Origin: a virus
Strand: one strand, 5' to 3'
Virus record (IMG/VR): IMGVR_UViG_3300009009_000025
Coordinates: 1-38,756 of that record
DNA length: 38,756 nucleotides
Shown: in pieces, positions 291-23,575 of the stretch
Layout: each line of letters starts with the position of its first letter
Position numbering within the stretch: the first letter of the stretch is position 1
Translations under genes and position numbers: made by a program
Notes under the pieces: generated by a model
The model's database searches: none
The model's input: the letters and a program-made list of their open reading frames with translations, nothing else
What the model was told of the DNA's origin: nothing

Positions 291-1619
291 ATGCCAAGAC
301 CCCAGACACAATCTTTCGAGGAAATGTTCGGCGTCGGCTCGGTGCCGATTGCGAGCTATTTCGGACTTCCACAAGGAGCCTCCGCCGACACACGCTTCTC
401 ACCACAAGCTCGGGGGATGCTTGCGCAGGGAGAAGAGTATGCCCGCGAACAGGCAGCGATGGACGCAGAACGCGCTGCGGAGGAACTGCTTGGCGGATCC
501 GCTGATATGACCGACGAGCAGATCGACCAACAACTGCTTCGCAATCCAAGGCTGTTTGGCACTCAGGCTATTAAGCCTTTGGATGGGTTCGTGCAGTACC
601 GGCAGAGCACCACACCCCAGTCGGATGTTGAGCTTGGGGCTTACATGGAGAAGAAGATAGAAGACCCATTTCACCTTGAGAATTTCCGTAAACGGATGCT
701 CGTCGATAGGCTGTCAGCCAATGATGCTTGGGAATCTTACCGCACCGACGAGTACAACATGAAGTTCGAGACGGCGCTCGCCGAAGCAGGAGTGCCTGAG
801 ACGGAGTATGCGAAGCTGAAGACGCCTTCGGGGAAGTTCATTCCTTCTGCGGTGGCTCGGGCGCAAGCTGCGTCGAAGGCGGCTGCAAAGCTGACAGGCA
901 CGGGGAAGAAGGTCGAGCCACTTGATGAAGAAGTGGAGTTTCTCAAAGACGCCATCGAACAGCGGAAGAAGATTTTCGAGGCTACTGGACGCGCTGATAA
1001 ACTGGCGGTAGATCCGTTGATGCTCGACTACATCAGCCGTTACGAGAAGGCGGCGAATGAGAAGCTGACGGCTTTGCGCCCACCCCCACAGATCAAAGTA
1101 TCCGAGTTGCCTGTAACACAAGCCGTTGCAGAAGTAGCGCCAGCACAGGCGTTCAGGACTCCAGAAGAACGTCAAAAAGCTGTACAGGAAGCTGAAGCCG
1201 CCGCACCAATCAAGCAGGCGATTGATTCTGCCTGGACCCAACAGAAAGCAAAACTGGCGGAGCAGATCCGTAAAGTCTATGGAGACAACCCAGAAGACAT
1301 CGTTCTTGCTGCGAGAGCCGTTTTGAGTGGGGAAGCTGATCCTGAAGACACCAGCGTAGGTGATGAGCAACTCGCCGGAGCGCCGAAATCCTCTTACCTT
1401 CAATACTTGCTCAAAAAAGTCGGACGGAAGCCAGAGGAAGTAGTTTTTGAGGAACCAGGGGACGCTCGAAAGACTTTCGGTGTAGGTTCTCAGAAAGTGA
1501 AGAACGACGAGTTGCTGAATGCGTGGGCTGAAGACGTTTTATCTCTGGCGGCTCAACTACAACAGACGGCACCTCAAAAACCCGCTGGTAATATCAAAGG
1601 CTTGCAGCAAATTGAGTGA
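291..1619 (+). CDS. Putative virion structural protein, 442 aa
   Basis: The frame is open further upstream, but the ATG at 291 (MPRPQTQSFEEMFG) follows the preceding stop by one base and is the natural start. The product is hydrophilic and rich in Ala, Glu and Lys, with predicted helices around residues 180-300 ('RAQAASKAAAKLTGTG', 'LKDAIEQRKKIFEATGRADKL') and a proline-rich stretch before a second helical part. No catalytic motif is visible. It ends in a TGATG overlap with the giant protein, so the two are probably translationally coupled. By position it may be a small internal-virion protein made with, or assembled with, the giant one. The family is not recognised. Confidence 0.75.
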   Translation: MPRPQTQSFEEMFGVGSVPIASYFGLPQGASADTRFSPQARGMLAQGEEYAREQAAMDAERAAEELLGGSADMTDEQIDQQLLRNPRLFGTQAIKPLDGFVQYRQSTTPQSDVELGAYMEKKIEDPFHLENFRKRMLVDRLSANDAWESYRTDEYNMKFETALAEAGVPETEYAKLKTPSGKFIPSAVARAQAASKAAAKLTGTGKKVEPLDEEVEFLKDAIEQRKKIFEATGRADKLAVDPLMLDYISRYEKAANEKLTALRPPPQIKVSELPVTQAVAEVAPAQAFRTPEERQKAVQEAEAAAPIKQAIDSAWTQQKAKLAEQIRKVYGDNPEDIVLAARAVLSGEADPEDTSVGDEQLAGAPKSSYLQYLLKKVGRKPEEVVFEEPGDARKTFGVGSQKVKNDELLNAWAEDVLSLAAQLQQTAPQKPAGNIKGLQQIE

Positions 1620-4600
1620 TGCCAGCATACCTTGTAGAGCTTGATGACGGACGGAAGTTTCGTGTAGAAGCTGATGCACCTCCGACTTCGGAGGAGATAC
1701 TGTCCTATCTACAAGCCCCTGCTCAACCAGAGCCCGACCAACCCGGTCGCCTTGGCAGCTTCGCCTCCAGTGTTGGCCGTGGTGCGCTCTCCGTCGTTCC
1801 TGGCACGATTGGCGGCGTCGGCTACCTGACAGGCTCAGACACGCTCACCGAGGCGGCAGACACTATTGAGGGCGGCATCAATCGGATGCTGCCGGTCAAT
1901 CCTGAATATCAGGACGAGTTCTTGATGAAGGCAGGCGGCGCTCTCGGGCGGGCAGGTGGTATGCTGCTCACTGGCGGCGCTACTGGTGCGGCAGGGAAAG
2001 CTCTCGCACTCTCTCGCGGACTTGAAGCTGCGCAGGCAGCCGCCAAAGGCACTAGCTTGGCCCGCAATGTGCTGACCGGCACCGGAGTTCTCCAAGGCAC
2101 GCGGGGAGGGGGCCAAGCCGCCGAGCAATACGGTATGCAGGGCGGCACGGCCTATGCCCGAGCACTCCTTGGAGGCGCAATCGAAGGTCTTTCTGAACGT
2201 GCTCTGTTCGGCATGGGCACGGAGCTTGCACCGGTGAAGAAGTTTCTCGGTGACACAGCCGAGAAAGGCGTCGGCAGTATCATCAAAGCCGCAGGAACGG
2301 AAGCTGGTGAAGAAGCCGCTGCTCAGATTGGTGGGAATGTCGCTACCTCGGTTCTGGCACCTTACGGCGTTGAGACTCCAGGTGTTCTGGCAGGAGCCGG
2401 AGAAGCCGCGCTCCTTGGAGGCATCGCAGGGGGAGCACTTGGCGGAGTGAATGCACTCATGCAGCCTTCCCCCACCATTGAAGGCGAGGCGATGATCCCT
2501 GCGGAAACACCACCCGAACAACCAGAAACCGACGAACTCGGTGTCGAGGCGTTCAGGCAAGAGATGGTCGAGATCGCTCAGAACCCCGATCCGATTGAGC
2601 CGCTGAAAGAGATCACGACGAAAGCTGCGGAGGTGTCTGTAGCGCAGAACGCAGAACTGTTGCCTGCGACATCGGCGGTGATCGCTGCGGGCGGACTGAA
2701 GCCCGCACCAGCACCAGCACCAGCACCAAGGGCTATCGGCCAAGTATTTCATTCGCCAATGTGGGGGGATAAAATAAAAGGTCTCGGTACTGGAAGTGAA
2801 TTAATGTTGATCGACGGGTCGGTAGCTGAGGGCACTGTCGTTGTCGATCAGAATGGGGAGTATGATATGTCAGATGGCGGAAGAGTAAATTCCGCTTACG
2901 TTAAGGCTTTTAAGCCGAAAGGAGCCGCCTCGTTTACCCCAGTGGTGCCAAAAGCTCCAGTCTCCCCAGATTTAGTGGAAGTCGAAGTGTCTAACCGTGG
3001 GGGCTCTTGGTATGTTCCAAGAAAACAATGGGAGTCTGGTGGCTCTTTGCTGGATCAAGTTGACCCAGAGAAACCAACGGTAAGTAAATCTAGGGTCAAA
3101 CGCAGTGATCTGAAGGAAATACGCCAGTCGGCTCCTGGTGGGTTGAAGCCTGCACCCATACAAGAAGAAACCCCCGTTGGTGCGCCGGTTGTCGGACAGC
3201 CAGCGTCGGGGGTGTTGTTGCCCGAAACTACACCTGTCGAAGTTCCTGTCGAGCCTGTTGTCGAAGTTCCTGAGACACTCGACCAACTGAGAGAACGGAT
3301 GCGCGCCGCCATCGCAGCCCAACCCATCGAACAAGAACCTGAACTTGAACAACCCGAAGCCGAGCCACCAGTCGTCGAGGAAACCGCCGCGCCCGTCGAG
3401 CCAATACCAGCAGTCGAAGAGGCTCCTGCGCCTACTCAACGTGCCATCGCTGAAGAAGACAAAGCTGAATTTGCAGAACTGCAAGATTTGATGAGACGCC
3501 GTGGACAGGCGCAGAACAAAGTCAAAGGCGTCAGTTTCTCCAAAAAAGACGAAGCACGGTTTCAGGAACTCGGGGCTAAGCTCCGTCGTTATTTGTTCGA
3601 GCCGGTTGACCCAGTCAACGACCCAGTTGTGGGGGAGGACATCAACGACCAGCCCATCCGCCAGTCTGCGCAAGGGACTTTCTACACGGTTGAAAACGGC
3701 AGAGTCCGCACAGGACCAGCATTCAAACTCGACCCGGAATACTCACGCCAACAGGATGAGCTTCTCCGTCAGAAAAAGGCGGCAAAAGAGTCGCCTGCGC
3801 CTCCACTCCCAGAAGAACAATTTCCGAAAGTCGAAAATGTAGTTGCGCCTGCGGGGGAGACTGAGGTAGGTTTGGAGATGGAAGAAACTCCGAAAACAGG
3901 TATGCAGCGTCGTCAGGAAGCTCTTGATGCGGGACTTGATCGCAGAACCGCCGATGCTGTTGGAGCATTCACGGACATCGCTGAGATGATGCGAGAAGCT
4001 AGGAACCGCACACCGGAGCAGGTCAAAAAAGACTGGATGGGTTATCTCGAAGCAGACTTGGAAAAGTTCAAAGGCAGCGCCCCGCGCACGGCTCCTGAAA
4101 GTTCTCTCTTCGCAGAAGGGCAGTATGTGCGTTACGAGAAGCAGAAAGACGGCGGATTCAATGTCGTCGCGGATGAGTCAACTTGGGTGCCTCAAGGTGA
4201 GAAAGCTAACCCGCAATTCAAAAAAGGAAAGGTGATCCGTAAGTTCCCAAGTGCAGAAGCCCTTTTTGAGTATGTGCGAAGCGAGTCAACAAAGCAGAAC
4301 GCGCCTTCACAAACCCTCCCCCCAGTCGATCAAACACAGGGGGAGGTCGGCCTCAGCGAGTTGCAAACTCCGGCAGCCGTTACTGAGGAGAAGGAGACTT
4401 CGAAAACCGAAAAGTCAAGCGAAGCTGAGACGGCTCCGGCACAGGAAGCACCAAAGCCTGCGCCCGCCGCAGCAAGCGAGCTTGATGTCGTTGGAATTGC
4501 CAACGCCCGTGTCAAAGCTCAACGGGAGCGTTTGAGCCTCGAAGAGATCACAGGACTTGTCGGAGAAGCCTACTCCTTCCCTCAGATGTGGGCTGACTCA

Positions 4601-7600
4601 GAATCGGCTCTGAAAGCCAACTCGACACGCGGCGCAGCTCTGGTGACGGAGTTGAACGACAAACCGCGCAATATCAGTGCTCTGGAAGTAGCTATCCTTC
4701 TTCGTGAAGAGGTGGCTCGCACCAATGCTCTGAATCTGGCGATGGAGGAGTTCAACGCTGCACCAAAGGGGAACAACGAAGCAGAACGTAAACGCATGGA
4801 TGATGCGGTGGTGGCGCTGACTGAACTCGACAACGCTGCGAATGTCGCAGGAACCGAGCAGGGACGCTCCCTGAATGCGCGCAAACTGCTGTCGAAGCTG
4901 GACTACACGCTACCCAAGATGCTCACCACCTTGAGCGCCGCCAATGACGGGGGTCTAAAAGACGGCGACTTGGAGATGGTTACGCGCCTCCAGAAACGTC
5001 TGAAGGATGTCCAAGATAAACTCGCCGAAGTTGAATCAGGCCAAGCAGCTCGCCTCGCTGAAGCTGAGAAAGTAGCCTTTGAAGCAGGTCGTCAGGAAGT
5101 GCTGAAAGACATCGAAGAGCGAGCCAAAGCAGACGCGGCAAAGATCGCGGAGATGCAGAAACGCCGAGACGAGTATCAGAAAGCCAAGAAAGAGGCTGCG
5201 ACGAAGCCGAACAAATGGGCCGAGATTCGTGAAGCTGCCCGAGCCAGAAACGCCGAACTCCGCAGCAACCTCTACAGCGATGTGGTTCTTGTCAAAGCCG
5301 CTTCGATGGCTGTCAACGATGTCATCATCGGGGCTACCTACATCGCTGAAGGAGTCACCAAGCTTGCGGACTGGGTCACGTCGATGCGTGCAGAAGGCTA
5401 CAACCTTCCCGACGCGGAGATGGAGCAACTCTTCAACGAGTCCAAGGCATTCGATGCCGGGGAAGCGTTGCCCGTTGCGGAAGCCCCTCTCAAGACGAAG
5501 AAAGCCAAAGCTCCAGTCATCGACCGAGTCAAAGCTATTGCTGCGGACGAAGAGCAACTCGACTCCCGCACGGTTTACAACTTTGTGGTCGAGAAGATGA
5601 AGGCGTGGGCTGAAGCGAGCCAGGGAGCCAAGCTTCCTGAAATGAGCGAAGCGGACCTGACCAGCGTCATCCGTGAAGTCACCGCCGACATTAAGCAGTA
5701 TTTCCCAGACATCACCGAGCGTGAAATCCGTGATTTGTTCTCAGGCTACGGGAAGATTCTGATGCCCTCGCAGGATGAGCTGTCCAAGCAGGTTCGGCAA
5801 CTTAGCGCCCTCGGCAAGCTGGCTTCTGCTATTGAGGACGCTATGGCGCAGCGGGCTCCTTTGAAGTCTGGTCCTCAACGTGACCGCGCCACTCAAGCGA
5901 TCCGTCTTCAGCAGAAGAAGCTGGCGCGGGAGCTTCGCATGATGGGCCGGGAGTATGAAGCTGGTGAGGAGCAACTTCGTTCCCCCCTAGACGCTATCAA
6001 GGCGCGCCTCAACAACGAGATCAACGACATCGACTTTGAGATTCGCAAAGGCAAAACCCCCCGCCGTCCAACCCCTGATTATGACCCTGAAGCCAAAGCC
6101 CTTGTCGAACTTCGTGACGAGCTGAAGCGAATCTCTGATGTCGTCAACGCTCCTGCGGGTCCGACTCTCGAAGAGACGGTTGCCGAAGAGATGAAGAAGC
6201 TCGACAAGCGCATCGAGGAACTTCAGAAGCTGATTGCCGAAGGGAAGTTCAAGCCCAAAGAGGACACGCTTCTCCACACGGCTGAACTCGATCAGAAGCG
6301 TGAAACTCGCGACACTCTGAACAAGACTTTGCAGAAGATGCGCAAAGAGGCTGCGGACAAACTGCGCACTCAGGAGGACATCGACGAGGAGGCTATCAAG
6401 TCTCTCGAAGAGTCCATCAAAGAGCTAAACAGCAAGATCGAAAAGGCTGACTACGCACTCCCGCAACGCCGCACGCCGACCCAGACCGCTGCCTACAAGG
6501 CTCTGGTCAAAGAGAAGGAAGCCCTGCAAAAGAAGGTCCGTGAAGAACGCGAGAAGCTGTTCGGACGCAAAGGCATGTCAGATGAGCAGCGCATCAAACT
6601 GGCGACGGCAGCTATCGACAAGTCGATGGCTCGTATCCAAGGAATGCTGACCTCCGGCAACTACGAAGTGCCGAAGCGCGTGTCGAAGACTCCAGAGACG
6701 CCTGAACTGAAAGCGAAGCGTGACGCCCGTGACGCTCTGCGCAAGCAACTTATCCAGCTCCGCAAGCTGAAGCGTGACGCAGCCATCGACCCGATTGCGA
6801 AGCAGATCGCCACGGACAAGAAGCGCATCCAGACTCGGATGAAGAAACTCAAGAAGCGCATGGATGACGGCGACTTCAGCAAGCCCGTCAAAAAGCAGCG
6901 GGCGACTGATGACGCCCTCCTGAAACTCCAGATTGAGGAAGAAGACCTTAAAGAGCAGTGGGCCAAGATCGTGTTCGAGCGTCAGTTGGCGAGCCGTGGT
7001 CCAGGCAAGAAGCTCCTCGACGCCACGCAGCAGACCCTGAATACCTCCCGCGCCATCCTCACCAGCGTGGACGTGAGTGCTGTACTCCGGCAAGGCGGCT
7101 TCATCGTGCTGGGGAATCCGCTGCGTGGTTTCCGCAACCTCGGACCTATGTTCAAAGCCTTCGCCGACGCTGAGTTCGCCAAAGGTGAGAAGTTCCGTAT
7201 GGAGCGACGGGAGAACTACAAAAACGGACTCTACCAGCAGTCGAAGCTGTTCCTCTCAGACACCAGCAAGGTGAACCAGATGAACAAGCAGGAGGAAGCG
7301 TTTATGACCCGTTGGATCGAGAAGATCCCAAAAAGCTACAAAGCTTTGTGGGTTGGTAGCGTGCTCCGTGGCTCTCAGCGAGCCTACACTGTGTTCTTGA
7401 ACCGCCTTCGCATGGACACCTTCGACGCAATGGTGGGCAACCTCAAGAAGGGAGACGTTCCGACTCCACAGGAAACGGCTACGGCTGCGGGTTTCATCAA
7501 CACAGCCACGGGGCGCGGAGACCTCGGTAAATTCAATCAGTCGGGAACGCTGCTAAACACGGTGTTCTTCGCTCCACGGCTTGTGTGGAGCCGTTTCTTG

Positions 7601-8224
7601 ATTCTGTCAGGACAGCCCTACTTCGCGGCTTCAGGTCGCACGAAGGCTCTCGTTCTGCGTGAGTACGCCAAGTTCCTCACTGGAGCGTCCGTGGTCTATG
7701 CTCTCGGGATGCTAGCCCAAGACGAGGATGACGAACCACTCGAAACAGACCCACGCTCCAGCGACTTCCTCAAAATTCGCTTCGGGGACACCCGAGTTGA
7801 TCCGCTCAGTGGTTTGATCCAAGCCACGGTATTCGTGTCGCGTTTAGTAGCTGGGGAGAAGAAAACAGCGAAGGGCAAGATCGTCCCGCTTCGTCCAGAA
7901 TATCGTCTTATGAATCTGTTCCGGGAAACCCCAAGAACAGACGAGGTGAAGTACGGCGGAGACGTTGCCACTGACGTGATGAAAAACTTCCTTCGCTCTA
8001 AACTGAGCCCGATTGTAGGTTCTGCCGTCAACCTGCTTGATATGAAGAACGTCGTTGGTGAAGACTCTGATCCAACTACCGAAGCGGAGCGCATGGTCAT
8101 CCCAATGTCGTTCATGGAAATGAAGGAGACACTTGAAGCCCAAGGTGTCCCTGAAGCGACTGCCTTGATTATGCTCCAGTTGTTCGGTATGGGCGTTCAG
8201 ACTTACACTCCCGGAAAGAAATGA
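1619..8224 (+). CDS. Giant internal virion / DNA-ejection-type protein, 2,201 aa
   Basis: A GTG at 1616 is also in frame, but the ATG at 1619 overlaps the previous stop (TGATG). The N-terminus (PAYLVELDDGRKFRVEADAP) resembles a short domain seen at the start of many large phage virion proteins. Residues about 41-280 are Gly/Ala-rich with GxxxG-like spacing and amphipathic helices, as in proteins that insert into the host envelope during DNA ejection. Residues about 280-1,000 are Pro/Glu-rich linkers with small beta-rich inserts. Residues about 1,120-1,790 are charged coiled coil ('MKKLDKRIEELQKLIAEG'). Residues about 1,797-2,201 form a folded C-terminal region ('LRQGGFIVLGNPLRGFRN', 'IRFGDTRVDPLSGLIQ') that I recall from large polyvalent-type phage proteins. 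No peptidase or transglycosylase motif was found. The ejection role is inferred from architecture. Confidence 0.8.
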   Translation: MPAYLVELDDGRKFRVEADAPPTSEEILSYLQAPAQPEPDQPGRLGSFASSVGRGALSVVPGTIGGVGYLTGSDTLTEAADTIEGGINRMLPVNPEYQDEFLMKAGGALGRAGGMLLTGGATGAAGKALALSRGLEAAQAAAKGTSLARNVLTGTGVLQGTRGGGQAAEQYGMQGGTAYARALLGGAIEGLSERALFGMGTELAPVKKFLGDTAEKGVGSIIKAAGTEAGEEAAAQIGGNVATSVLAPYGVETPGVLAGAGEAALLGGIAGGALGGVNALMQPSPTIEGEAMIPAETPPEQPETDELGVEAFRQEMVEIAQNPDPIEPLKEITTKAAEVSVAQNAELLPATSAVIAAGGLKPAPAPAPAPRAIGQVFHSPMWGDKIKGLGTGSELMLIDGSVAEGTVVVDQNGEYDMSDGGRVNSAYVKAFKPKGAASFTPVVPKAPVSPDLVEVEVSNRGGSWYVPRKQWESGGSLLDQVDPEKPTVSKSRVKRSDLKEIRQSAPGGLKPAPIQEETPVGAPVVGQPASGVLLPETTPVEVPVEPVVEVPETLDQLRERMRAAIAAQPIEQEPELEQPEAEPPVVEETAAPVEPIPAVEEAPAPTQRAIAEEDKAEFAELQDLMRRRGQAQNKVKGVSFSKKDEARFQELGAKLRRYLFEPVDPVNDPVVGEDINDQPIRQSAQGTFYTVENGRVRTGPAFKLDPEYSRQQDELLRQKKAAKESPAPPLPEEQFPKVENVVAPAGETEVGLEMEETPKTGMQRRQEALDAGLDRRTADAVGAFTDIAEMMREARNRTPEQVKKDWMGYLEADLEKFKGSAPRTAPESSLFAEGQYVRYEKQKDGGFNVVADESTWVPQGEKANPQFKKGKVIRKFPSAEALFEYVRSESTKQNAPSQTLPPVDQTQGEVGLSELQTPAAVTEEKETSKTEKSSEAETAPAQEAPKPAPAAASELDVVGIANARVKAQRERLSLEEITGLVGEAYSFPQMWADSESALKANSTRGAALVTELNDKPRNISALEVAILLREEVARTNALNLAMEEFNAAPKGNNEAERKRMDDAVVALTELDNAANVAGTEQGRSLNARKLLSKLDYTLPKMLTTLSAANDGGLKDGDLEMVTRLQKRLKDVQDKLAEVESGQAARLAEAEKVAFEAGRQEVLKDIEERAKADAAKIAEMQKRRDEYQKAKKEAATKPNKWAEIREAARARNAELRSNLYSDVVLVKAASMAVNDVIIGATYIAEGVTKLADWVTSMRAEGYNLPDAEMEQLFNESKAFDAGEALPVAEAPLKTKKAKAPVIDRVKAIAADEEQLDSRTVYNFVVEKMKAWAEASQGAKLPEMSEADLTSVIREVTADIKQYFPDITEREIRDLFSGYGKILMPSQDELSKQVRQLSALGKLASAIEDAMAQRAPLKSGPQRDRATQAIRLQQKKLARELRMMGREYEAGEEQLRSPLDAIKARLNNEINDIDFEIRKGKTPRRPTPDYDPEAKALVELRDELKRISDVVNAPAGPTLEETVAEEMKKLDKRIEELQKLIAEGKFKPKEDTLLHTAELDQKRETRDTLNKTLQKMRKEAADKLRTQEDIDEEAIKSLEESIKELNSKIEKADYALPQRRTPTQTAAYKALVKEKEALQKKVREEREKLFGRKGMSDEQRIKLATAAIDKSMARIQGMLTSGNYEVPKRVSKTPETPELKAKRDARDALRKQLIQLRKLKRDAAIDPIAKQIATDKKRIQTRMKKLKKRMDDGDFSKPVKKQRATDDALLKLQIEEEDLKEQWAKIVFERQLASRGPGKKLLDATQQTLNTSRAILTSVDVSAVLRQGGFIVLGNPLRGFRNLGPMFKAFADAEFAKGEKFRMERRENYKNGLYQQSKLFLSDTSKVNQMNKQEEAFMTRWIEKIPKSYKALWVGSVLRGSQRAYTVFLNRLRMDTFDAMVGNLKKGDVPTPQETATAAGFINTATGRGDLGKFNQSGTLLNTVFFAPRLVWSRFLILSGQPYFAASGRTKALVLREYAKFLTGASVVYALGMLAQDEDDEPLETDPRSSDFLKIRFGDTRVDPLSGLIQATVFVSRLVAGEKKTAKGKIVPLRPEYRLMNLFRETPRTDEVKYGGDVATDVMKNFLRSKLSPIVGSAVNLLDMKNVVGEDSDPTTEAERMVIPMSFMEMKETLEAQGVPEATALIMLQLFGMGVQTYTPGKK

Positions 8225-19918: not shown

Positions 19919-20209
19919 TTAAAACGGTTCGTTATCTTCTTTTTCCTGCTGACGTTTAAAGTCAGCAACAGTTTTCTTTTTGTGGCATTTGTGACGGCAG
20001 AGCAACTGGAGGTTCCCCTCCTTGTGCTGGCGTCGGTAGAAGCTGACTCGGTGGCTAGTGTCCATGTCTCGGTGGTGGGCTGGTCCTTGAGGAATGATAC
20101 AGTCGAAATCAAGGTGCTTGTCTGTCCCACACTCGAAGCAGGCTCCGCCGAGCTTGAACATCAGTTCAAACCGAGCTTTCCTTGCCCACTCTTTCTGACG
20201 TTTAGCCAT
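19919..20209 (-). CDS. HNH endonuclease, 96 aa
   Basis: Zinc-binding C24/C27 (CFECG), then the histidine pair in 'IIPQGPAHHRDMDTSH', and C70/C74 with the last histidine in 'GNLQLLCRHKCHKKKT'. This is the compact HNH/beta-beta-alpha-metal fold. In phages such proteins often lie near the terminase and take part in packaging-associated cleavage, although others are homing enzymes. Its start overlaps the end of the 90-aa gene upstream by eight bases. Confidence 0.8.
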   Translation of the reverse strand: MAKRQKEWARKARFELMFKLGGACFECGTDKHLDFDCIIPQGPAHHRDMDTSHRVSFYRRQHKEGNLQLLCRHKCHKKKTVADFKRQQEKEDNEPF

Positions 20210-20769: not shown

Positions 20770-21044
20770 TTTGATTCAGGCCAAGCGAAGGCTGCGGTTG
20801 TGGGGTGTAGAGCTTTCATAATAATGCGGTAGCCATCAGGCTTGATTGCGCCCTCTGTAAGTTTTGCAAATGCTTGCCATTTCAGATCCATCTCTCTGAG
20901 CACGGATAAAAAGGCTTGATCTGTTTTTACCTTGCGATTTTTCACAAGCTCTGAGGTCTCTTTGTCGAAGTCAATGCCGATACGGCTAAGGGTTTCAGGA
21001 GACGGGCTTTGATTAAATAAGTGTGCGTAGTCTTTTGCTTTCAT
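20766..21044 (-). CDS. Hypothetical protein, 92 aa
   Basis: ATG at 21044 (MKAKDYAHLFNQ) overlaps the last base of the helicase stop (TGATG); the longer upstream extension only shadows the helicase gene. GAGGA in the helicase's last codons is placed as its ribosome binding site. Helical, charged ('AFLSVLREMDLKWQAFAKL'), no Cys. Function unknown; translational coupling suggests it is made in step with the SNF2 helicase. Confidence 0.65.
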   Translation of the reverse strand: MKAKDYAHLFNQSPSPETLSRIGIDFDKETSELVKNRKVKTDQAFLSVLREMDLKWQAFAKLTEGAIKPDGYRIIMKALHPTTAAFAWPESK

Positions 21045-23575
21045 CAGCAAAAATCCTCTTCGTGTTTGATGGTTAGTTTCTTCCTTGGCACCGCGCCTTC
21101 GCGGTAAGATTCTAGTAGCTGGAGCGCAGTTAAGAGTCGGTCCTCTGTTACCTTTTTCTCCTCGATCACCGTAGCTACGGCGTAGTCCACTGTGTCTGGC
21201 ACCATGAGCCGGTAAACGGTCACGACACTCCCCTGCCCTCGTCGGTCGAGACGGGCGATCATCTGCTCGTAATCCTCTCGACTGTAGGTTAATGTCAGCC
21301 AGACGAGCGTATTGCCTCCGTGTTGGAGGTTGAGCCCGTGTCCGACGCTTTTCGGGTGAGCGACCAAGATGGGGATCTTCTTGTTGTTCCAATCCTCCAA
21401 AAGCTGTTTCTGTGGGGTTTGATTTTTGGCGTCCGCAAAGAATTTAGCCTTGGGAAAGTATTTTCGCAGCCTCTCCTGTTCATGCCGGAAAGCACATGCC
21501 ACCAGCACCGGACCTTCCGTTTGCTTGATGATCTTCTCCAGGGCTTTGATCTTCAGGTCGTGGATGTCGTGCCACTTGCTGTCGGCGTCGTAGATGCTGC
21601 CGGAGGTGAACTGAAGTAGCTTCGCTACCAGTGCTGCGGCGTTCGGTGCTGTGATCTCGGCTGACTTCAACTGGAGCACCAGTTCCTTCTCGAACTCCTT
21701 GTAGTCGTGGATCAGGTTCTTCGGCAGATGCACTTCCACGTCCTCGACCACTGTCTCCGGCAGGTTGAGCCAATCCTTCGAGCGGAGCGTGAGAGTGATG
21801 TCCGCCAGTCGGTTCTCAATGGCTTCGTTGGAGCCGTGGAGTTCTTTCCACTTATATCCTCCGTAGCCGGTCTGTTTGAAATACGTTTGCTTGAAATGCT
21901 CGAAGGCTCGTCCGAGACGCTTGCCATTATCGGTGAACCTAGCTTGAGCGAAGAGATCAAGGAGGGAGTTAGGCGCAGGGGTGCCTGTAAGCGCCCAGAT
22001 ACGTTTGTGTTGGTCATGGGGTATTTCTCTTCTGTAAAGATTGGCACGTTTGGAAGTGGGGTTTTTGAGCTTGGTGCAATTATGCACAAGGCAGCCATTT
22101 ACGCTGTACGATGGATGCCCAGAGACGCTAAGGTCGTAGAAACGTATGACTCCGTCTCTGGACCTAAAGCGGCGAAGTCGAATATCTGTTGATTCGTAAA
22201 TCTCAACACTCTCCACCCTTTTTGAGCCAAAACTTCGGTCTTCTTTTGGTCCTTCACTTTGACCTTCCGAGACTTGTGAGTGAATCCGTCCACTTCGATA
22301 GACAGCTTCCGGCTCTCGCAGCCAATATCCAGCTTGTAGTGGTGGGGTATCCGATCCTTGTGGAAGAGACCTTTCGTCTTGAATATGTACTCCATCTTCC
22401 ACAACCCCGGTTCTATCGAGTTCAAAAGTTGGAACAGAAAATTTTGCGGGTCTGAAGCGGGGCGACCGTTCCCACCTTGCACTAGCGGTCTGTGCTTGAT
22501 CCTCTTCAGTGTAGCACTCAGGCGATCCCGGGACACGTCGTTCAGCATAGGCTTTAAGTTTGCTATGCGGTCTAGCTGTTTCAACGAACTCTCTGACCCT
22601 GAAGCGTAAAACTTTTTCATCCCGCTCGACAACTTCCCGCGAAGTTCGGCAGTCCACACAGGTTTGTGGCTCGACTGCATTCTCCATTTCGCTGAGCAGG
22701 ATGTCCCGCAGAAGCGTTTCTTGCTTTTGTGCGGGATAAAAGGTGTCTTGCACCATTCGCAAGGAATTGTCGATTTTGGTGGACGGGCCGCCCACTGCTC
22801 TTTCAGTTTCACTCCTGTGCTCAAGGTGGAACATTGCTTGCTGCAAAAACGAGTCTTCATGCCATTGCTGTGGTCCTTCGGCATGTAAGCCGTTTTGCAC
22901 CATTCGCACACTCTCGGATGTCGAGGCAACGCAGGTCTCCCCCCTTTGGAGGTCTTTGGCTTGGACCCATCCGTCTGAGGTGAAGAACAGATGGGTGTCG
23001 CTGCACCAGATGTCTTGTCCGTCGATGCGGACTTTGGCAATACGTTTTGGCTGATTGATGTGGACATGAGTAACAAACCCTACCCCTTGCGCATTAAATA
23101 CGCAATCACCTTTTTTCACTTTCTCGATGGGTTTTTTACCAGCAGGCGTGTCAACCAGTGTCCCAGACGCAAAGCACTCATCTACGATCAGCGTATCGTA
23201 AGGGAGTCCGAGCCCCAGGCTTCTCCGAGTCTTCACCAACTCTACAAGCTTGGGGATGGACTCGTAGTTGCAGACGTAGATGTGAGCCTTTCCTTGCAGG
23301 AACGCACGCTTGCCCGCAGGTGAGCGCAGGTTCGCCACCTTCATCCATTTGAAGTCGTCCCACCGCTCGACCTCCAGAGGCCAAGTCAGGTTCGCCACAC
23401 GCATTGGAGCGAGGACGAGGGTGCCTACGGTCTGCTTGCGTTGGAACAGCTTGTTCACAGCACTCAACGAAGCCGCCGTCTTCCCGATGCCAACGCCGAC
23501 GAAGCCGAGAGCGTGCAGGTGGTCGAGCAGGTGCTGGGTCAGCAGATCCTGGGGTTCTGAGGAAGGGAATTTCAT
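21044..23575 (-). CDS. SNF2-family DNA helicase with an in-frame intein, 843 aa precursor (477 aa spliced)
   Basis: Motif I is 'GVGIGKT' at 26-32. Motif II is split: DE (132-133) precedes the intein and the sequence resumes at C500 with 'CTKLKNP', giving a normal DExxK-type SNF2 box after splicing. 'WALTGTPAPNSLLDLFAQ' (~527) is motif III and 'QMIARLDRRGQG' (771-782) is motif VI, the arginine-finger box. Such SF2 translocases remodel replication or recombination intermediates in phages with this DUF2800/DUF2815/VRR-NUC set. ATGA with the upstream gene and TGATG with the downstream one. It ends EEDFC, like three other replication proteins here. Splicing must occur for activity, since the intein interrupts the ATPase site. 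Confidence 0.85.
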   Translation of the reverse strand: MKFPSSEPQDLLTQHLLDHLHALGFVGVGIGKTAASLSAVNKLFQRKQTVGTLVLAPMRVANLTWPLEVERWDDFKWMKVANLRSPAGKRAFLQGKAHIYVCNYESIPKLVELVKTRRSLGLGLPYDTLIVDECFASGTLVDTPAGKKPIEKVKKGDCVFNAQGVGFVTHVHINQPKRIAKVRIDGQDIWCSDTHLFFTSDGWVQAKDLQRGETCVASTSESVRMVQNGLHAEGPQQWHEDSFLQQAMFHLEHRSETERAVGGPSTKIDNSLRMVQDTFYPAQKQETLLRDILLSEMENAVEPQTCVDCRTSREVVERDEKVLRFRVREFVETARPHSKLKAYAERRVPGSPECYTEEDQAQTASARWERSPRFRPAKFSVPTFELDRTGVVEDGVHIQDERSLPQGSDTPPLQAGYWLREPEAVYRSGRIHSQVSEGQSEGPKEDRSFGSKRVESVEIYESTDIRLRRFRSRDGVIRFYDLSVSGHPSYSVNGCLVHNCTKLKNPTSKRANLYRREIPHDQHKRIWALTGTPAPNSLLDLFAQARFTDNGKRLGRAFEHFKQTYFKQTGYGGYKWKELHGSNEAIENRLADITLTLRSKDWLNLPETVVEDVEVHLPKNLIHDYKEFEKELVLQLKSAEITAPNAAALVAKLLQFTSGSIYDADSKWHDIHDLKIKALEKIIKQTEGPVLVACAFRHEQERLRKYFPKAKFFADAKNQTPQKQLLEDWNNKKIPILVAHPKSVGHGLNLQHGGNTLVWLTLTYSREDYEQMIARLDRRGQGSVVTVYRLMVPDTVDYAVATVIEEKKVTEDRLLTALQLLESYREGAVPRKKLTIKHEEDFC
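22079..23176 (-). mobile_element. Intein in helicase motif II (366 aa)
   Basis: The intein covers precursor residues 134-499. N-terminal block A begins with nucleophile Cys ('CFASGTLVDTPAGKK'), block B carries S192-D-T-H195 ('WCSDTHLFFTSDGW'), block F is 'RFYDLSVSGHPSYSVNG', block G is 'CLVHN' and the +1 extein residue is Cys. All residues for class 1 splicing are present. The intein-frame middle (about 220-455) has no dodecapeptide LAGLIDADG or other endonuclease motif and reads as low-order Arg/Glu/Gln-rich sequence. The nuclease is instead in another frame of the same DNA. Confidence 0.88.
22099..23067 (-). CDS. Vsr/EDxHD-like homing endonuclease encoded in a second frame inside the intein, 322 aa
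   Basis: The frame is shifted by one base from the helicase and stays inside the intein DNA. The likely start is ATG 23067, ten bases after AGGG; a TTG at 23076 is an alternative. Two zinc-finger units follow: C54/C57...C75/C79 and C103/C106...C120/C124 (both 'CEWCKT...FC'). The C-terminal nuclease part has D247 ('YKLD'), E258 and D260 ('IEVDGFTH'), H264, D273 and 'KGWRVLRFTN'. This is the Vsr/DUF559 fold used by EDxHD homing enzymes of phage introns and split inteins. It presumably cuts intein-free helicase alleles and so spreads the intein. Confidence 0.8.
   Translation of the reverse strand: MSTSISQNVLPKSASTDKTSGAATPICSSPQTDGSKPKTSKGGRPALPRHPRVCEWCKTAYMPKDHSNGMKTRFCSKQCSTLSTGVKLKEQWAARPPKSTIPCEWCKTPFIPHKSKKRFCGTSCSAKWRMQSSHKPVWTAELRGKLSSGMKKFYASGSESSLKQLDRIANLKPMLNDVSRDRLSATLKRIKHRPLVQGGNGRPASDPQNFLFQLLNSIEPGLWKMEYIFKTKGLFHKDRIPHHYKLDIGCESRKLSIEVDGFTHKSRKVKVKDQKKTEVLAQKGWRVLRFTNQQIFDFAALGPETESYVSTTLASLGIHRTA

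Follow-up and report, generated by a model that had tools for sequence, protein, structure and literature searches.

Canonical bifunctional inteins carry a LAGLIDADG or HNH domain that is fused in frame. Fractured genes, in which gp41-type split inteins are accompanied by a free-standing endonuclease, were reportedly described by Dassa and colleagues in 2009. The EDxHD homing endonuclease I-Bth0305I belongs to a group I intron (PMC3943268; PDB 3r3p). In the ShiLan case, which concerns mycobacteriophage methylase genes, an HNH endonuclease is hidden where there is neither a splicing domain nor a detectable ribosome-binding site (Arsenault, Gosselin and Gogarten 2025, PMC11855218). The ShiLan endonuclease ORF lies out of frame in an insertion that is left open in the host frame; the insertion is patchy and thought to remain in the protein, and expression of the endonuclease is unexplained (PMC11855218).

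The locus described here lies on the minus strand of a 38,756-base IMG/VR virus record (the window, by which we mean this whole stretch of DNA). We consider it very probable that it is a mobile intein with a homing endonuclease gene fully overprinted at +1 between the two splicing halves (Table 1). The two open frames, the homologies, the avoidance of stops, the selection on the nuclease frame, the empty alleles and the horizontal transfer of the unit are established at the level of sequence; splicing, internal initiation and cleavage are inferred. Unlike the fused endonuclease of canonical bifunctional inteins, the nuclease of the window would be a separate protein, read from a different frame that has a start codon of its own and a stop at 22099. 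The gp41-type fractured genes contain a related intein (gp41-1) with a Vsr/EDxHD-type nuclease between its halves, and fractured members are found in the nuclease tree; there the nuclease lies between two genes, whereas in the window the intein halves are not on separate genes and the nuclease is inside one unbroken frame. The catalytic-domain fold is that of I-Bth0305I, although that enzyme is intron-borne and the window nuclease is intein-borne and has FCS-like zinc fingers. Among the searchable open-access literature, ShiLan is the nearest published precedent. Both have a homing endonuclease gene that lies out of frame within a stop-free insertion, but the nuclease of the window is enclosed by a complete HINT intein, the main nuclease type is EDxHD and not HNH, and a Shine-Dalgarno start is visible. 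No published report of an overprinted intein nuclease was found in that literature, an absence which is not proof of novelty. The arrangement would be a third type of association between an intein and a homing endonuclease, the others being in-frame fusion and a free-standing gene placed between split halves.

Table 1. Features of the helicase gene, its intein and the nested nuclease gene in the window
Feature	Coordinates	Strand	Description
SNF2-type DNA helicase ORF with in-frame intein	21044..23575	(-)	843 aa; SNF2-rel_dom, Helicase_C, phrog_62 DNA helicase
N-extein	23177..23575	(-)	C-terminal end ...IVDE of helicase motif II; uninterrupted VDE/STKLKNP in intein-free relatives
Intein	22079..23176	(-)	366 codons, Cys1 to ...VHN, then Cys+1; from profile matches and motifs
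N-terminal splicing half	22922..23176	(-)	Intein residues 1-85: blocks A and B, C1, H62
Shadow middle of intein frame	22226..22921	(-)	Residues 86-317; without confident fold, poorly conserved
C-terminal splicing half	22079..22225	(-)	Residues 318-366: blocks F and G, H365, N366; TIGR01443
C-extein	21044..22078	(-)	Starts CTKLKNP
Nested nuclease gene	22099..22929	(-)	+1 frame, TTG start, 276 aa; most likely extent
Shine-Dalgarno-like AAAGGGGGGAG	22937..22947	(-)	Doubles as coding for intein QRGE turn; duplex energy -11.2 kcal/mol
Zinc finger 1	22831..22908	(-)	C-x2-C...C-x3-C, direct reading
Zinc finger 2	22696..22761	(-)	C57-x2-C60...C74-x3-C78
DUF559/EDxHD catalytic domain	22165..22422	(-)	D201, E212, D214, H218, D227, K230; PDB 3hrl, 3r3p
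Doubly constrained motif	22198..22218	(-)	Nuclease GWRVLRF / intein RVESVEI, both readings conserved in 62 loci

In profile searches against Pfam and NCBIfam, the long frame matched SNF2, Helicase_C, Intein_splicing, PT-HINT and intein_Cterm. All residues of a class 1 intein are present (Cys1, the block B His, the terminal HN and Cys, Ser or Thr at +1), and in an alignment of 35 inteins C1, F2, H62 and N366 are invariant and V364-H365 nearly so. AlphaFold2 modeled both intein halves with pLDDT above 90 (the N-half over approximately residues 1-80) and most of the middle at 37-67. The HINT fold formed by the two halves is that expected of a class 1 intein, with Foldseek matches to gp41-1 (6qaz, E=1.5e-6) and bacterial intein-like domains, and so is the precise in-frame insertion at a conserved site that is empty in other alleles. 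With these motifs intact, the helicase ORF should splice in cis, although splicing is only inferred.

A sequence-only reading of this DNA had proposed that the intein frame is open throughout and that a nuclease, shifted by one base, lies wholly inside it, with two C-x2-C/C-x3-C fingers and a catalytic core of E258, D260, H264 and D273. All of this was borne out. The C-terminal part of the nested frame, behind the two fingers, matches DUF559 (E=2e-12, Pfam profile search), so that the absence of Vsr/DUF559/EDxHD homology, which would have refuted the proposal, can be set aside. The four core residues correspond to E212, D214, H218 and D227 in the 276-aa numbering; they and the cysteines of finger 2 are invariant or nearly so in 42 homologues, C57 and C60 being invariant and C74 and C78 nearly invariant. 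The AlphaFold2 model of the nuclease has a pLDDT of 87.7, and Foldseek retrieved the catalytic domain of I-Bth0305I (3r3p, TM by target 0.65) and 3hrl with modest E-values and a probability of 1.00. Core and fold are those of an EDxHD/DUF559 homing endonuclease; site-specific cleavage of the empty allele is inferred. The window nuclease is divergent and forms a long branch in the nuclease tree.

The arrangement is no isolated oddity: it forms a widespread class in which two or more nuclease families occur. A tblastn search with the nuclease against annotated phages matched 40 records, and the host-gene annotations among the matches listed are helicase, P-loop protein, coil-containing and hypothetical protein. 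The sequences of nine such isolate records, from Vibrio, Corynebacterium and Pseudomonas phages, were analysed (L002-L010, among which several of the Vibrio records are near-identical); in all nine the nuclease lies at +1 in an unbroken intein and is unannotated. Since isolate genomes show the same arrangement, an assembly artefact is excluded. When IMG/VR was scanned with a profile, 390 relatives were confirmed, and in the best 80 of these 390, from which our counts are taken (near-duplicates included), 69 loci are nested, all at +1. The intein ends are recognisable in nearly all of the 69, with Asn followed by Cys (46) or Ser (21) at +1 in 67, and none of the best 80 has a nuclease fused in the intein frame. 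Three bacterial assemblies have the overprinted arrangement as well, one of them in DnaX; the host genes identified are SNF2/DEAD-type helicases, a helicase-methylase and DnaX. The search for other inteins with this arrangement, which the sequence-only reading had suggested as a check, was successful in viruses, isolates and bacteria alike. No nuclease relatives were found in the plasmids searched. A scan of genomes for which only the window nuclease served as query gave no hits; with a tighter alignment, five loci were recovered. In a Spirochaetaceae assembly (L110:3968-4582), a nuclease of the same family lies just upstream of a helicase frame, which it slightly overlaps; this helicase has no intein at motif II (VDE/SHHS), as a free-standing homing gene might show.

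The second nuclease family is HNH_3. In the terminase intein of the isolate Tetrasphaera phage TJE1 an HNH_3 nuclease with zinc fingers is hidden at +2, and a scan with it revealed the same in five terminase-type inteins (L096, L098, L103, L104, L106). In L108 an HNH_3 nuclease is at +1 in a portal-like gene, and the loci with HNH_3 in terminase or portal inteins comprise these six and L011. Stop avoidance in the HNH cases is individually weak except for L096, L103 and L108.

How the nested frame is translated can only be inferred from the DNA. The sequence-only reading had a 322-aa protein start at an ATG (22099-23067); the frame stands, but the TTG at 22929 is probably the better start, and the first 46 codons after the ATG, which overlie the N-terminal splicing domain, are probably not nuclease. 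This TTG adjoins the first finger and has AAAGGGGGGAG 7 nt ahead of it. In the 53 loci where a start codon falls no more than 15 codons from the first finger, the Shine-Dalgarno sequences were on average stronger than matched controls in 5000 of 5000 draws, although some loci have no good Shine-Dalgarno sequence. ShiLan left open how hidden nucleases are translated, and such starts are a candidate answer. It is also conceivable that ribosomes translating the N-half undergo a programmed +1 frameshift and so produce an N-intein/nuclease fusion. Every nested EDxHD case has the +1 offset, and the nuclease frame of the window is open back to a TTG at 23076 (22099-23076, the longest ORF, 325 codons), so that such a product is not excluded there. 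We nevertheless regard frameshifting as improbable: besides the Shine-Dalgarno starts near the first finger, many homologues have a nuclease-frame stop just upstream of the start, which leaves almost no room to shift (in L004 it is one codon upstream of the ATG start, so that a long fusion has no room), and the HNH relatives use +2.

Mobility of the overprinted intein is indicated by its distribution. Nine helicases closely related to that of the window, with 88-96% identity in the C-extein, have no intein; most of them read VDE/STKLKNP or IDE/STKLKNP (the slash marks the insertion point) where the window has VDE/intein/CTKLKNP, and one (L121) reads WDELTKGKNP. The homing site is inferred from these empty alleles, and cleavage is inferred as well. 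In related Vibrio phages the motif II site is empty (L125, L126, L130), occupied by a short mini-intein (L127-L129, L131) or, in others, by the overprinted intein. The helicases of L128 and L131 have, beside the motif II mini-intein, an apparent second intein at the Walker A site (...DFTVTHN/TVV). Between the Vibrio phage loci L002 and L003, extein bases differ by 22-23% and intein bases by 3-5% outside the last 24; identity is 95-97% in the intein and 77-78% in the exteins. The constraint of the overlap does not account for the difference, since the N-intein, which lies outside the overlap, is itself 97% identical. By this comparison, the overprinted element travelled as a whole from one diverged phage to another. 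Beside the window intein, flank identity dropped near the junction and was noisy, so that a co-conversion tract is only suggestive. The nuclease might, alternatively, be domesticated, no longer selfish and serving the phage, e.g., in the exclusion of rival phages. According to PMC10448857, limits to genetic exchange between phages can be marked by nuclease genes. Homing, however, fits the patchy occurrence at one precise site, the empty alleles and the horizontal transfer as a unit, and domestication appears unlikely.

Within the overlap, selection acts on the nuclease frame, and the middle of the intein frame is its shadow, as the sequence-only reading had supposed. Of the 35 differences between L002 and L003, 32 are at nuclease third positions, i.e., intein-frame first positions, and dN/dS is 0.027 in the nuclease frame and an apparent 1.69 in the intein frame; for L005 and L008 the values are 0.087 and 2.96. 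Across the compared pairs dN/dS in the nuclease frame is 0.03-0.2 and apparently above 1 in the intein frame, and in each of 326 pairs the nuclease frame has the higher identity of the two. Because the nuclease is an old conserved gene, the product that is really overprinted is the intein-frame linker. The middle, being open, would be translated in the precursor, and might thus be thought a functional domain to which the nuclease homology is secondary. This is very unlikely: AlphaFold2 gives no confident fold, and its conserved columns are shadows of nuclease residues (the near-invariant L280-Q281 is the reading-frame shadow of nuclease Y198-K199). It was rejected on the substitution pattern and the fold. 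One nuclease (L088) at first appeared broken, an appearance that came from match coordinates; it is intact. Both readings are conserved in one place, where nuclease GW-x-V-L-R-F and intein R-V-(E/D)-S-(V/I)-E-(V/I) share bases, the intein strand preceding block F. This doubly constrained junction probably fixes the +1 register, which is an inference.

The intein frame is kept open by selection. Synonymous codons were permuted in 1000 trials with the nuclease protein fixed, and stops in the intein frame were counted; the window has none where the mean expectation is 11.5, zero was never reached (P<0.001), and the third frame of the same DNA has 19 stops. The overlap in the window is real and not due to chance. 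Homologues mostly have either zero stops or about the expected number, a two-peaked distribution, and the frame remains stop-free across highly diverged homologues, as the sequence-only reading required. The pooled zero-stop count is partly so by construction because the nested class is defined by the absence of stops; the weight of evidence is in the window's own test and in the gap between nested and non-nested loci. That the frame is open by chance or codon bias, the nuclease being an ordinary gene in a broken intein, can be dismissed: high-GC members have few expected stops (down to approximately 3), but synonymous shuffling rules it out for the window, dozens of diverged loci behave in the same way, fractured and most free-standing relatives carry about the expected number, and all splicing residues are intact.

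An intein with an overprinted nuclease would work as follows. Translation of the helicase frame would yield helicase-N, intein and helicase-C; the conserved halves would form one HINT domain and splice in cis, removing the unstructured shadow loop of approximately 230 residues alongside. Ribosomes initiating internally on the same mRNA, at the TTG behind the Shine-Dalgarno sequence, would make the nuclease as a separate product, and its zinc fingers and EDxHD core would cut intein-free helicase alleles at motif II (VDE, then S or C). Repair would copy the whole doubly coded element into the cut allele, and selection would hold the nuclease sequence and forbid stops in the intein frame.

Nine of the best 80 IMG/VR loci (seven distinct) are fractured, with an N-half gene, the nuclease and a C-half gene starting within the nuclease end. 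In the nuclease tree, over which free-standing nucleases are scattered, these seven group in a single clade (100/99) surrounded by nested lineages. One of the latter (L030) groups with the nested L019 (100/94), has 5 stops against 11.5 expected (P=0.003) and looks as if it was recently freed from an intein frame. The direction of change is not proven because the tree is rooted at the midpoint only. We propose tentatively, as somewhat short of an even bet, that overprinted inteins are a general and stable stage of intein evolution: separate nuclease families entered inteins in another frame, the splicing frame stayed free of stops through them, and natural split inteins arose where stops appeared and the C-half acquired a start codon of its own. 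How split inteins originated thereby becomes testable. In phages the arrangement is also an extended, conserved overlap on a single strand in which the need for both frames is plain, and it accounts for nonsense-looking linkers in some phage helicase and terminase genes and for missing nuclease annotation. These contiguous relatives of gp41-type inteins, apparently tolerant of a 200-residue disordered loop, may be useful for engineering.

Elsewhere in the window, no PHROGs or NCBIfam family matches a 2202-aa ORF (1616-8224, plus strand) or the neighbour that lies upstream of it (138-1619). A 96-aa ORF at 19919-20209 (minus strand), for which a Pfam search gave nothing above noise, has the pattern C-x2-C ... 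HH ... GNLQLLC-x-x-x-CHKKK and resembles a small free-standing HNH nuclease.
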